DNA from: Pempheris klunzingeri
Taxonomy: Eukaryota > Chordata > Actinopteri > Acropomatiformes > Pempheridae
NCBI RefSeq assembly: GCF_042242105.1
Contig: NC_092026.1
Span: 16,790,691-16,854,690, forward strand
DNA: 64,000 nucleotides
Direction of reading: 5' to 3'
The number at the start of each line of letters is the position of its first letter. Position 1 is the stretch's first letter. The position numbers were made by a program, and so were the translations under genes. Under the pieces are notes generated by a model. The model saw only the letters and a list, made by a program, of their open reading frames with translations. It searched no databases and had not been told where the DNA came from. Shown piece by piece: positions 2,043-54,354 of the stretch.

Positions 2043-4325
2043 ATGGCTGCAGCTCTGGCCAACAGAGCGATGGGAGCCATCGTAGGATCAGCTGTTGCAG
2101 ATGCTGCAGGTATTAATGAGAATAAAAGCCTCTGGTGCTGTAGTGTGATATTGTATCATACACTGTGTGGGTAACAATGAGTTTCTTTGTCCTACTTCCT
2201 GTTTTAATATTCATAAAGATGTAGCTAGCAATTCGATTTTTAAGGAGCTTCTGGTTCTGGTCAGAATTAAACTGACCCAATGACTCGTCCCCAACAGCTC
2301 AGCCCCTCCACTGGGTGTACGACCTTCAGAAGCTGCAGGGGATCCTGGCTCAGGATCCAAACCCTGAGTTCCGCTCTGAGTCGGCCAATCCTTTCTACAG
2401 GAGGCAGACGGGCCAGCAGAGCTGCTACGGAGACCAGGCGTTTGTCCTGCTGGAGTCCTTGTCTGAATGTGGAGGTAGGCTTGCTTCTTCATCTCAGCGA
2501 CCCAACAGAGTGCCTCATGGGCACTTCACATTTTTACTAATGTAAGAAGGAAATGAAAGCTCAAGTCAGCATGTCGGATGTAGGCTGGTCCTCATTGTCT
2601 GGTTGGAGTACAAGATATTTTGTTTATGATTATGATTGTTTGACTTTACAGTGTGAGATTTATGTTTGCCAGGTCTAAATGTGGACGATCTGAAGCAGCG
2701 CACACTGAAATTCTTTGGGCCGGGATCAGAGTATGACACGCCTGTCAATGATCCCTACAGAGAAAGAGGAGGTAGGAAAACTATCCATCTGCTATGCTGA
2801 TGCTAAAGAATCCACCTGTTTTCACTGAGTAGGCTTGGTATACTGATGGTGCTCTGTGTGTCCTTGTGTACACCAGGGCCAAGGCCTCAGCTGCCCATCG
2901 AGGGACCATGGAGACATGCCAGTCTGAAGAGCTTCCTGAAGAACGTGGATGCAGGCAAAGAGGAGACAGGTACATCTCATTTCTTTACAACAACTAAGCC
3001 ATAAGTGAGAGAAACAGCTTTAACTAACGTGTGTGTATTCGCCACAGGCTGTGCGAACGACTGTCAGATTGATGGAATAGCCAAACTGGCTCCTGTAGTG
3101 GCTTTTTATGCAGGAAAGCCTGACATGCTGGAAAAGGTTGAGCAGGCAGTCCGTGTCACCCAGAACAACGATGAATGTGTGGCAGAGACTCTGGCAGCGG
3201 CAAGGTGAGTGGCTTTTCCTTTTCCATGTATGTCCAGTACTGCTCATGTCTGAATATGGGAACTGAAACAACTAATAAATGATAGAAGAGCTGAATTAGC
3301 TCAGATTGGGTCCAAACTAAACTGAAATTTTCTTCTTCGTTATTTCTCAGGTTCCTGGAGCATTTCATCCTGAATGGTCCTGATCCAAAAGCCTTGGATT
3401 CGGTGCTCGATCAGCTCAGCGACCCGAACAGAAAGCAGCCCCAGGACCTGGACAAAGCCGTCATTGGTATGTGAGGCCTGCAGCATTGTTGCTTCACTAC
3501 ACCACAGTCATGGGACTGAGTCATGGGATTAAAGGGTTTTTACTCCTCCTCATTTTGTGCTACTTTAATGTACTGAATAGTTACTAATTCTATCTGAGCA
3601 GACTTGAACATGGTCTGTTTCTACACCGCTCTATCCACACACAGGGGAACATGCAAACATATGTGTTTATGCAACTTTACATTTCTACATTTGCCATGTT
3701 AGTTATACTGGAGTGACGATGGGTTTAGCTTCTTTTCTGATCGATTCCAGGACACATTCATCAGGTGAAGGAGAACTTATCAAAGACTCCTCAGGAGCTG
3801 ATCCCCGCTGTGTTTCCAAACACATGAGGTATCCTCACAAAGCTTGTTTTTACCTCTTTCATCAGTCGTGCTTTAATAAGCACAGATCAGACAACTACCT
3901 GTAACTCAGGCAGTGGCCATTTACGAGACAAATAATGACACACGCAGTTTAAAGTACCTTTTTGTTCTCATCTGGTGCTGATGTTCCTTCAGGTTTGCCA
4001 GGTGCGTTCCAAGCAGCGCTGCATGGAGTCCTGACAGCCAAGCACTATGAGCAGGCTGTCAGAGACACCATGAGCTGTGGGGGATGCACCTGTAGCAGAG
4101 GGTCCTTCATCGGAGCCTGTCTTGGGGCTCAGGTATGACCGCATGCTGATCTGACATTGTCTATATTTAATGTTATGCCAATATTGTGTGTCTGATTTAT
4201 GAAATGTGCTATTTTAATTCTCACAGATTGGACTGGAGGGAGTTCCAGCTTCCTGGAACTCCAAAACACTGCGTTATGACGTGGTGTTGGAGAACGCCAA
4301 GAAGATAACCAAACACCACCAATAG
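2043..4325 (+). CDS. selenoj: Selenoprotein J (ADP-ribosylglycohydrolase / J1-crystallin-like), Sec-encoding
   Basis: Nine coding exons join in frame: 2043-2109, 2298-2474, 2673-2771, 2877-2969, 3048-3204, 3351-3466, 3751-3828, 3993-4132 and 4227-4325, giving 341 residues. All introns are GT-AG. The protein starts MAAALANRAMGAIVGSAVAD, the N-terminal motif of the ADP-ribosylglycohydrolase fold, and is closest to jellyfish J1-crystallins. Codon 262 (3825-3827) is TGA inside exon 7 of this list. Reading continues over the next junction as NT-U-GLPGAFQ with no loss of similarity, and a SECIS hairpin follows the stop codon, so the TGA is read as selenocysteine. The metal-binding GGDxD motif of true hydrolases here reads GGCTC (Cys294, Cys296), so hydrolase activity is doubtful. 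SelJ is known from fishes, with a proposed structural or lens role; its biochemical function is unsettled. The ATG lies directly after the acceptor of intron 1, which fits an untranslated first exon. Confidence 0.95.
3825..3827 (+). other. selenoj: Selenocysteine codon (in-frame UGA)
   Basis: The frame reads Pro-Asn-Thr-TGA-G, and the last G joins GT of the next exon to make Gly-Leu-Pro-Gly-Ala-Phe. Good coding sequence with correct phases continues for 79 further residues. The SECIS at 4398-4463 supplies the recoding signal. A plain stop would remove the conserved C-terminal part. Confidence 0.93.
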
Positions 4326-4397
4326 TTATTGTTTTTGTGGCAGCACAGTGTGTTTTCTGTGTGGCTGAGAACACGGTAACAAAGTGTTGGGCTTTCA

Positions 4398-4463
4398 CAG
4401 AGCAGTGAATGAAGGTTCTTGTCTAAACTGCTGGATGGCAGGAGCCAGATGTTTTTGTCTCTG
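4398..4463 (+). promoter_or_regulatory. SECIS element in the selenoj 3' UTR
   Basis: The element has the whole eukaryotic SECIS layout. The 5' side of the core is ATGA at 4409-4412 and the 3' side is GA at 4448-4449. Between them, 4414-4423 (GGTTCTTGTC) pairs fully with 4437-4446 (GGCAGGAGCC), including four G-U pairs. The 13-nt apical loop (4424-4436) starts T-AAA, giving the required unpaired As at 4425-4427. A lower stem is offered by CAGAG at 4398-4402 with CTCTG at 4459-4463. The absence of an extra mini-helix suggests a type I form. SBP2 binding at the TGA/GA quartet would direct Sec insertion at 3825. Confidence 0.9.
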
Positions 4464-4512
4464 TTAAAGTTAAACATGATGGTTCACGTGTTCAATAACT
4501 CTGTTTTTCCAC

Positions 4513-4518
4513 AATAAA
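4513..4518 (+). terminator. Poly(A) signal of selenoj
   Basis: AATAAA lies 188 bp after the stop codon and 50 bp after the SECIS. An A-run follows at 4529-4539. Confidence 0.7.
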
Positions 4519-5234: not shown

Positions 5235-10916
<5,682 letters not shown>

Positions 10917-12013: not shown

Positions 12014-13115
12014 CTACTTATCATCCTGTTTTCCAACCAAGCCGTAGATGACGTTGGCGAGGAGAGAGGCCCCTGTGATGCCAGTGACGGCAGTCAGCGT
12101 CTTCCACATGCTGGCCGATCTCTCGTGCCTGTCAATAAAGCTCCTGTAGTCAGTGGGTACCAGGATGTAGTTGCGGCCGTCCTGCGGGGCCTGCAGTCTC
12201 ATCACCTGGCCCCCCTCCAGCACCACCTCACCGAAACCAGTCACGGTGCTCCCCACCCGCAGCAGCTCCTCGCTCTCCTCCATCGCCACGGGTTTCTCAC
12301 CGCTGATGCCCTGCACCACGATGTCCACCAAGCCCTCCTCAGCACGTTTCACTTTGAAGTAAACCCTCTCCAGGTAGCACCCAGAGGCCTCCAAGGGGTT
12401 CTGGACCTTCACATACAAGTCAGTGAAGTGGGCTCCCGGTCTGATCAGACTGAAAGGTACCGAGTTGTTGGTTTCTTTTCTGTTCATTGTCCGAGAGTTC
12501 CTGGAAAAGTAAAGTGTCAGTAACAGGCTAGTAGACTGATAAAGAGACATTTTTTAGTTTTTATTCTGTGGGGTAACACACCATGTCTTGCTGAGGGAGT
12601 TCCAGTATTTCCAGTGCTCCTCCACTGCTATCCTCTGAATCACACCGAAGCATCGTGGGACAAACTGGCTGGCCAGAGGCTCCCCGTCTGCCTGGACCAG
12701 ACCTTAAAACACATATGAAGGAAATTGTAATTCCTAAAAAATGATCCCATTCAAAACTGCATTTAAAAAAAAAAGTCAATTCTACACGTTTGTACCTTCT
12801 ACAGCAACATACTGAAGTCGCTTGTGTGGAGATGCTTTCAGTACTTTGACCAAATGCTCATCTGGCTTGAAAATGGGTATTTCCTGAAATGGGAAGGGAA
12901 GCGTTGAAATTTAAATCACTGTAGAACTACACCTGCATTAACAGGCACTTTAAAGGGACTCACACTGTGATGTACTATACACACTGTGATGTATTTACCT
13001 TCAGCTTCTTCAGCTCTTCCTTCTTTTCTTGGTATAAATGATAGAAAAGGCCAGAGAAGGCAAAGCTGGACCCGACACCGATCAAAACCAGCGGGTTTAC
13101 AGGAAAGTCACCCAT
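12014..13115 (-). CDS. MUL1-like mitochondrial membrane protein lacking the RING finger
   Basis: Four coding exons on the minus strand (12999-13115, 12796-12883, 12582-12702, 12014-12500) give 270 residues. The family member MUL1/MAPL is a mitochondrial outer-membrane E3 ligase of about 350 residues. It has two membrane segments around a GIDE/BAM domain facing the intermembrane space, and a cytosolic RING. Here the first membrane segment is VLIGVGSSFAFSGLFYHLY (about 9-27), the GIDE-type region includes HWKYWNSLSKTW and ISGEKPVAMEESEELLRVGS, and the second membrane segment is near 241-265. The frame then stops after GKQDDK, where MUL1 would continue about 90 residues to its C3HC4 RING. No Cys/His pattern was seen in the next several hundred bases. 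It may be a RING-less paralogue. The start MGDFPVNPLV is preferred over an in-frame ATG 23 codons upstream, because an acceptor (GTGTCACAG) lies between them. Confidence 0.85.
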
Positions 13116-19582: not shown

Positions 19583-20592
<1,010 letters not shown>

Positions 20593-42200: not shown

Positions 42201-44094
42201 ACTTCATACGGCAGAGGGTCAGACTCTCCCCATTTGAATGACCTGTGTACAGGAAAAAAGGATGTATAATCATGAATAGACTCATGCAGCAGTAATTCCG
42301 ATGAATGAAACGGAAGCAGCCATGTTGCTGCCCAAAGAAAAGCATGCATTTCTGCGTAGCTGGAAAACGTATTGTCACAAAACTGAAAATAGCTGTTACT
42401 CAAACAGTAAATTTTGGAGATGGTTTTCACAGAACAGATTAAATATTCCTTTTCTGTAGTATCATTTGCTATATCAATGGAAATATGCATAATGCCTCTA
42501 ATATGGCTATGAGAGTGGTTTTACACTTCATGGGATGGGAATAACTGACTTTTAACATGTACTTAAAGCAGCACTGATTTCCTTTGCTAAGTATTTTCAT
42601 TTAGATAATAGACAAGCATATCATATGTAAAGTTCCATATCAAATTTGGTATCCACACTTACTGTCTGTCATAGATCATGACTGAGTCCAGGGCATGCTC
42701 GCCTTCCTTCAGCTCCTTTCCTCCAATGACAAAGATGGAGTTTTCAGCTTCAGTCAGGCCGAACAGACAGCGAGGGTTGGGCTGTGAGGGCATGCCCAAC
42801 CACTCTGAACTCACTGGGTCAAACTGGGGATTAAAACAACAATATGTGAGGAACAAAAGGTACCAGAAATCAGCATTTTGTAGATTTGATTCTAACGCTT
42901 TCTTTGTGTTTTACAGTATGGGGAATGAAGAAAAAAGTGATGCGTTCATGGTTGTCACGACTCATGCGTTACCTGTAGGAAGTAAGAGCTGAACGGTTCA
43001 TCTTTGTCCTCCTCGTTGTAGAGCATTCCTCCGACAACAAACACCTGGTTCTGATCGGTCACCAGGCTGCAGTGGTTCTTGGGAATTTCTGTCGACTCTG
43101 AGACCACAAAGCATTCATTTCCTACTGGGTCATAGGCCACAGTCCCTGTGTCACTAATCATAAGCATCAGGTCCATCTCAAACATCCCAAAGCGAGGGTT
43201 GTTGTTGAGGATACCCGGAAGGAACCCTTCCTCCTCATCATCATCCTCATCTTCACTCTCTCCCCCTTTCGCCCCATCACTGCTGAGCTTCTTTGGCTTT
43301 GGGAGACGCCCTTTGTGAGCATCTTTGACAAGATCCAGGTCCTTCTTGATCTCTTGGCTTAACCGGATGTACTGATGACGCTCTACTTTCTCTTTGAAGT
43401 AATCCAAAGCCATGAGCCTGAAACGGATGCAGTGTAACAACTCTGGCAGGTCCTTAATGCGATTTGTCTCGTCATGTCTCACCCAGTCCATCAGGGATTC
43501 AAACACCAGCTCCTCTTGCTCAACGTTGAGGGCATCTGAGGTGATGATGATGCCCAACTCACTCGGGCCTAGCTGTAGGAAGTCCTGGTCCCTGATAACA
43601 ACCTGGTAGCGTTCACAGATAAACTCCCTAGCAGCTAGAGAAAGCCTGGGACAATCCAGCAGCAGTCCTAGCCTGAAGATAGCTAAGCAGTTTCCCAGCA
43701 CCATCTTCTCTTGGAGGTAGGACACACAGACAGAGAAGATGGAGGGGATCTGGTACATGTTAGCAACCATGAAGATATCCTGGACGTTCTGTTCTGTCAG
43801 ATTAATGTCAGAGGTGTAAAGGTAGCGCAGGATCATCCCCATAACAACCGGCTCCACATCTTTGAGGACAATCTCACGCTTTTTGCTCTCCTCCAGGTCT
43901 GACAGGAACATGGCCTTGAAGAAGGGGCTGCTGGCTGCCAAAACCAAGCGGTGGCAGGGGAACTCCTTGTCCTGAATCTTGAGGACACAGTCGACAAACT
44001 TGTCATTCTCCAAGAGGTCACACAATCCGTCCTGGAGCAGAGTCTGTTGGTACATCCGTGGCTGCTCCACGGGGTCTATAGTCAGGGCAGCCAT
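39294..44094 (-). CDS. klhl40: Kelch-like protein 40 (KLHL40, KBTBD5)
   Basis: Six coding exons on the minus strand (42973-44094, 42663-42823, 42135-42242, 41412-41597, 41009-41158, 39294-39405) give 612 residues (human 621). KLHL40 is a muscle protein of the sarcomere I and A bands. It is a BTB-BACK-kelch adaptor for CUL3 that also stabilises nebulin and LMOD3. Seen in order are a BTB domain (about 30-130; [20 protein letters not shown]), a BACK domain (about 140-240), an acidic linker ([11 protein letters not shown]) and kelch repeats with GG motifs ([32 protein letters not shown]). The C-terminus [20 protein letters not shown] matches KLHL40 rather than KLHL41. BTB, BACK and the first kelch part lie in one large exon. 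The start [13 protein letters not shown] has no upstream in-frame alternative. Confidence 0.96.
41186..41220 (+). repeat. Imperfect (CA)n microsatellite
   Basis: CA units with CG interruptions lie in klhl40 intron 4, about 30 bp from the exon 5 acceptor side. Confidence 0.8.
41625..41870. repeat. Probable dispersed repeat in klhl40 intron 3
   Basis: AAAGGGGCGCTCCGCTGATT and TGCATTGTGGGAAATGTAGG are phrases I associate with high-copy fish repeats. No ends or duplications were resolved. Confidence 0.35.
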
Positions 44095-44230
44095 TTTGTT
44101 AGCTCTCCTTGTCCTGGTTGGGTTTTGTGGGCACCCTACTCACTCCCCACAACAGAGCAGGTCTGTCAGCGTTCACAGGGCTGCTAAGATTGCTGTGGAT
44201 GGCCTCCACGGGTTGGTTGGCTGGTGGCTG

Positions 44231-54032: not shown

Positions 54033-54121
54033 TGTATATGTATGTATGTATGTATATATATATATATATATCTCCTATAGAGAGAGAGAGAGAGAGATAT
54101 GTAGATATATATATATATAGA
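54033..54121 (+). repeat. Compound microsatellite (TATG)n (TA)n (GA)n (TA)n
   Basis: Four simple-repeat blocks adjoin each other in the probable hhatl 5' intron. This length is unstable by nature. Confidence 0.9.
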
Positions 54122-54354
54122 TCCCCGTGCCACATACAGACCAAGGTGCTTTAAAGAGGTGACATTTTACTAATAAGCCTTTAGGATCGACAGGGCAGTG
54201 ACTTAAATAGGACTGCAGAGCCCGGGCGCCGCGGAATCAGCACCGTCAGCTGCGCAACCCTACCTCTCCTTCCTATTATAGCCCGTGCAGTTGGTCTGCT
54301 GTGGAGCAGGGCAGCTGCAGTGCTATGTGATCTGAGAGGCGCTGGGGGACTCAC

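Follow-up and report, generated by a model that had tools for sequence, protein, structure and literature searches.

Introduction

The founding paper of selenoprotein J (SelJ) is that of Castellano et al. in 2005. SelJ is a selenocysteine (Sec)-containing relative of ADP-ribosylhydrolases found in ray-finned fishes, of which medaka and stickleback have an additional copy, SelJ2 (PMC3316567, PMC9087173). In algae, SELENOJ is reported with Sec as well as with Cys (PMC7539508). Zebrafish Selenoj has been quantified by mass spectrometry and is reduced in sbp2-/- larvae, where it is one of two selenoproteins with the smallest decrease (PMC8881744). A table entry of PMC11591929, citing Castellano 2005, gives SelJ a structural role in the lens, and the parts of the SelJ literature consulted contain no functional test of the protein. 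Fewer than 1% of SELENOE, SELENOL and SELENOJ genes are reported to be well annotated in Ensembl, and RefSeq, with its selenoprotein pipeline, to do much better with such genes (PMC12822975).

The selenoprotein mRNAs of SELENON, SELENOT and SPS2 carry a selenocysteine redefinition element (SRE), a stem-loop in the coding region closely 3' of the UGA-Sec codon (PMC8704476, PMC4561486), and a comparable arrangement is seen in the gene described here.

We analyzed a stretch of 64 kb of the Pempheris klunzingeri genome, hereafter the window. It holds what is almost certainly a fish selenoprotein J gene, in which UGA codon 262 is decoded as selenocysteine via a SECIS element, yielding a 341-residue protein with the ADP-ribosylglycohydrolase fold. 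Like the SelJ of ray-finned fishes, the product is a Sec-containing relative of ADP-ribosylhydrolases, and the gene itself shows no difference from that family. Because fish SelJ is already known (PMC3316567), the gene as such is no surprise. Its mechanism follows the textbook; the hairpin after the UGA and the bacterial relatives with Cys are the less ordinary parts. The case confirms a gene that is prone to be broken up by routine annotation.

The SelJ gene has a single in-frame TGA

The SelJ gene (window 2043-4325, + strand) was rebuilt by eye and by script. Its nine coding exons lie at 2043-2109, 2298-2474, 2673-2771, 2877-2969, 3048-3204, 3351-3466, 3751-3828, 3993-4132 and 4227-4325, all introns are GT-AG, and the coding sequence amounts to 1026 nt. 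The ATG stands immediately 3' of an AG acceptor (2041-2042), a layout that is identical in the paralogue described below, and exon 9 includes the terminal TAG (4323-4325). Exon 7, of 78 nt, contains the complete Sec codon (TGA, 3825-3827) and one base beyond it, ending at 3828. In the frame that runs from ATG to TAG this TGA, at residue 262, is the sole internal stop; the other two frames of the spliced coding sequence contain 14 and 13 stops. The product has 341 residues, 261 before the TGA and 79 after it, exactly as the earlier note on this DNA had proposed, and the TGA indeed falls within the NT-U-GLPGAF context that the note had given, which spans residues 260-268 of the rebuilt frame.

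A second SelJ gene keeps the TGA and the frame beyond it

The 646-Mb genome was searched with the SelJ protein, accepting matches with E up to 1. Seventeen exon matches were obtained, nine on the SelJ gene itself and eight on contig C21. The latter belong to a second SelJ gene (L016 1760-7695, corresponding to G000:C21:7060760-7066695), which is 67% identical to SelJ and has an open frame except for the Sec TGA. We treat this gene as a paralogue, which may correspond to the SelJ2 described in other fishes (PMC3316567). It has nine exons with the same phases as SelJ and encodes 344 residues. Exon lengths are equal in seven of the nine, exons 2 and 9 of the paralogue being longer by 3 and 6 nt, and its TGA, at residue 263, aligns with SelJ residue 262. 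The splice phases, which the earlier note had described as clean around the TGA, keep the nine GT-AG exons of SelJ in one frame and recur in the paralogue; together with the shared TGA, this agreement goes beyond coincidence.

Identity between the two proteins covers 230 of 341 aligned columns, the shared TGA column included, with 181/261 upstream of the TGA and 48/79 downstream. Nei-Gojobori (NG86) estimates gave dN 0.19 and dS 2.15 upstream, where dS is near saturation, and dN 0.28 and dS 1.04 downstream. Because dN/dS is low past the TGA, this stretch is still selected as protein, and the exons downstream of the TGA, as judged from the two genes, evolve under purifying selection. The 79 residues that had looked conserved in the earlier note show 48 identities and a dN/dS of ~0.28/1.04.

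Both genes carry a SECIS-type element in the 3' UTR

The earlier note had reported no SECIS element. In contrast, we found one in the proper place, in the 3' UTR at 4398-4463 (+ strand), with its ATGA / AA / GA core at 4409-4450. The core begins 83 nt past the stop codon and lies upstream of a poly(A) signal (AATAAA, 4513-4518, + strand). It consists of ATGA, a 10-bp helix without mismatch (three G-U pairs), a 13-nt apical loop in which AA comes early, and GA past the helix. The fold of 4375-4480 has a z score of -3.2, with one of 200 shuffles as good.

The element is of the eukaryotic type and stays below the Rfam threshold: RF00031 (SECIS_1) scored 19.2 bits on 4398-4463 in a 1-kb scan, under the gathering score of 35, with an E value of 1 over 4227 families and ~2e-4 for RF00031 alone. 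Six more weak matches in the same scan belong to families unrelated to SECIS. At the gathering score Rfam gave no match in the whole window, and a permissive Rfam scan of the 64 kb, up to E 10, gave 14 matches with RF00031 not among them. A scan with the core pattern, which was written after the element had been spotted by eye, found two matches on both strands of the 64 kb, the SelJ SECIS being the better one (score 8.5) and the only one free of mismatches; the same pattern gave 18 matches in ten shuffles, two of them scoring at least 8. In the paralogue, the SECIS at L016 7797-7857 reached 24.1 bits with RF00031 (E 0.048 in 1 kb), likewise below the gathering score of 35, and its helix has two mismatches. 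A SECIS_1 search of the genome, in which 150 of 15,612 candidates were scored, returned three strong elements elsewhere and neither the SelJ nor the paralogue SECIS.

The genome also encodes a tRNA-Sec gene, which at 78.1 bits is the sole one of 24 matches above the cut-off of 47. With the same model all 14 control genomes gave matches as well, above the cut-off in five.

SelJ belongs to the ADP-ribosylglycohydrolase family and has lost its metal motifs

Residues 11-317 of SelJ match the Pfam family ADP_ribosyl_GH (PF03747) with an E value of 2.5e-43 and a score of 149.2 bits (cut-off 26.2), which places SelJ in the same family as ARH1-3 and DraG. Among solved structures, the sequence matched mt-SAF23, MJ1187, an ADP-ribosylglycohydrolase (2cwc), DraG and, weakly, ARH3; NCBIfam gave nothing beyond a weak DraG match far under its cut-off.

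Read with the standard code, the frame closes at 3827, and one could take the TGA as a true stop, exons 8-9 as relics and the gene as a pseudogene or the source of a truncated protein of 261 residues. However, exons 8-9 keep their frame and splice sites and, compared with the paralogue, a low dN/dS; the PF03747 match ends within them, past the TGA, and both genes retain the TGA together with a SECIS-type element. We consider such a truncation highly improbable and favor selenocysteine at this codon.

In DraG/ARH enzymes, the TDDT and GGDxDT motifs bind metal ions. Unlike ARH1-3 and DraG, SelJ is without these acidic motifs and has SCYG (64-67) and GGCTCS (292-297) instead; the paralogue has TCYG and GGCTAS at the same places. 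Since the acidic metal-ligand motifs are lost, hydrolysis of ADP-ribose by the known mechanism is unlikely in SelJ. For the same reason we would expect the protein to act in redox chemistry or as a structural protein akin to a lens crystallin, rather than in ADP-ribose hydrolysis. That the metal motifs are gone and Cys or Sec occur in their region suggests the kind of chemistry to be sought in SelJ.

Bacterial relatives have cysteine at the Sec position

A genuine selenoprotein is usually recognized by Sec in one lineage at a position where close relatives have Cys. A tblastn search with the fish protein, carrying X at residue 262, returned three plasmid records, the best being an open piece from Vibrio campbellii (E 1e-9). 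Used as a query in turn, this piece led to two Rhodobacteraceae proteins, from M382 and Alisedimentitalea scapharcae, that are 97.7% identical to each other. The coordinates of these marine bacterial SelJ-like proteins are L018, L021 442-1353 and L022 442-1353, and the Vibrio copy is split over two reading frames.

Our first bacterial alignment had C at the Sec position, and was redone with X because C could have favored a match to Cys. With X in place, the column holds Cys in all three SelJ-like bacterial proteins (two of them being the 97.7% identical pair), in the contexts GMHC-GL and GMAC-EL, and the pairing recurred when SelJ carrying X was compared with the Vibrio piece by BLASTP. The bacterial proteins are 26-27% identical to SelJ and, unlike it, have no Sec codon. 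They share with SelJ YG.Q at the place of TDDT and the motif R[VT]T[QN]N[NT]D. One Asp (GGDS) is retained in them at a site that is Cys in the fish proteins. The Sec column is Gly in two of two haloarchaeal proteins, which retain TDDT and GGDTDT. In four alignments to solved structures, all distant relatives and two of them near-identical, residue 262 stands opposite Leu, Leu, Val and a gap, with no Cys. Scans of genome-contig and viral-contig collections revealed no relatives of the fish SelJ proteins, and a viral-contig scan with the Vibrio piece revealed none either; a phage collection yielded one distant hydrolase. The earlier note had counted an aligned Sec or Cys as support for the selenocysteine reading, and such residues are what the relatives show: a TGA in the paralogue of the same genome and Cys in three of three SelJ-like bacterial proteins.

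The bacterial alignment also bears on the possibility that the mature mRNA lacks exon 7 through skipping. The 78 nt of this exon can be removed with the remaining frame open, and the result would be an in-frame protein of 315 residues without selenocysteine. Yet the paralogue keeps both the length of exon 7 and its TGA, a SECIS would serve no purpose in a Sec-free mRNA, and the three bacterial proteins align to the end of the exon, with Cys at the Sec position. We give skipping as little credence as truncation.

Together the TGA of the paralogue, the SECIS in both genes, the bacterial Cys and the tRNA-Sec gene support the selenocysteine reading with which the earlier note began.

A stable hairpin follows the UGA

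The spliced SelJ mRNA is predicted to form a hairpin of 94 nt in exon 8 (3999-4092, + strand). It begins 7 nt past the UGA, in the neighborhood where the SREs of SELENON and others lie (PMC8704476, PMC4561486). For the 102 nt past the UGA the folding energy is -59.8 kcal/mol, and the minimum over 114 windows along the SelJ mRNA falls here. Compared with 500 dinucleotide shuffles and with 500 synonymous shuffles the z scores are -6.6 and -5.4, and no shuffle of either kind was as low; as in SREs, the stability of the hairpin in SelJ exceeds the demand of the coding sequence. Among 206 GC-matched genomic windows, taken along the + strand of the 64 kb with a step of 25, none reached this value; the closest was the same hairpin (-55.8 at 4001), and the next, elsewhere, had -45.7. 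When folds were ranked by codon, the Sec codon took third place among 306 in SelJ, next to its neighbors, and first place among 309 in the paralogue.

In the paralogue, the same stretch folds at -47.4, the lowest of its 121 mRNA windows, with z scores of -2.1 (dinucleotide, 16/500 as low) and -2.6 (synonymous, 4/500). In the outer stem, ten pairs are identical in both genes, with a pair probability of at least 0.99 in the whole mRNA. Folding the two genes jointly with RNAalifold gave -35.7 against a null of -18.0 (sd 3.6, 0/500 as low), in which the codon columns of both genes were permuted jointly to control for ancestry, 6 of 36 columns being immovable. An earlier null, in which the two genes were shuffled separately, gave -14.2 (0/300) and leaves ancestry uncontrolled. 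Under the joint permutation, single-gene folds were as low in 0/500 for SelJ and in 20/500 for SelJ2; from the latter count, the paralogue hairpin by itself is weak support.

The paralogue is able to form 28 of the 36 SelJ pairs; over 1000 synonymous shuffles the mean was 21.6, and 28 was never reached. Between the two sequences, 25 pairs are unchanged, two are changed on one side, one on both sides and eight are broken, six of the broken ones in the apical part. Folded separately, SelJ (36 pairs) and the paralogue (35 pairs) have 22 pair positions in common. Codons are identical at 17 of 24 identical residues in the hairpin stretch and at 99 of 199 elsewhere (p 0.055).

We suggest the SelJ hairpin as a candidate selenocysteine redefinition element. 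The SELENON redefinition element is shorter than 94 nt. Compared with known SREs, the SelJ hairpin thus differs in its length, and its decoding activity is putative. The hairpin beside the UGA goes unmentioned in the passages on SelJ of PMC3316567 and PMC9087173. Our literature search, outside which key papers lie, turned up no SRE in SelJ, and searches of PMC8704476, PMC4561486 and PMC3541580 found no mention of SelJ. The hairpin makes the use of a redefinition element by SelJ testable.

Such a strong structure 3' of the UGA might on its own prompt a near-cognate tRNA to read the codon, so that an amino acid other than Sec is inserted; the SELENON redefinition element does yield some Sec-independent readthrough (PMC4561486). 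Against this stand the SECIS-type element in both genes and the Cys that the bacterial relatives have at this position, a residue that usually signals Sec. This explanation strikes us as even less probable than truncation or exon skipping, and decoding as selenocysteine remains our reading of the codon.

Proposed decoding of the SelJ mRNA

The selenocysteine machinery recruited by a SECIS comprises SBP2, EEFSEC and Sec-tRNA. When a ribosome reaches the UGA at codon 262, the SECIS, 323 nt further along the SelJ mRNA, would recruit this machinery, leading to insertion of Sec, and the hairpin 7 nt past the UGA may aid the decoding. From these sequence features we infer that Sec is indeed inserted in Pempheris klunzingeri. 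When selenium is short, translation would presumably terminate at the UGA. With the last exon junction 141 nt downstream of the UGA, the mRNA would then be expected to be open to nonsense-mediated decay.

The observations can also be combined into a broader history, which we put forward tentatively and regard as rather doubtful as a whole. SelJ would represent a branch of the ARH fold shared with marine bacteria, in which Cys occupied the Sec position and the metal site decayed. In fishes, this Cys would have been replaced by Sec, Cys would have arisen at former metal-site positions (65 and 294 in the two genes, 296 in SelJ only), and the hydrolase pocket would have turned into a Sec/Cys redox center, with reading of the UGA dependent on the unusually strong hairpin as an SRE. 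If this history were true, the output of SelJ would be set by the hairpin plus the SECIS.

Neighboring features of the window

Weak Rfam microRNA matches at 54038-54143, on both strands, fall in an AT-rich simple repeat and are most likely an artefact. The gene next downstream of SelJ (5235-8000, + strand) resembles, we assume, translation initiation factor eIF2B epsilon; an open reading frame within it (6536-7015) was without a Pfam match. An open reading frame at 12014-12553 (- strand) has a GIDE E3 ubiquitin ligase domain and is presumably MUL1-like. A transposase piece with a DDE_3 domain, which we take to be Tc1-like, is located at 19747-20592 (+ strand), and a BTB-BACK exon of a Kelch-like gene at 42955-44139 (- strand).
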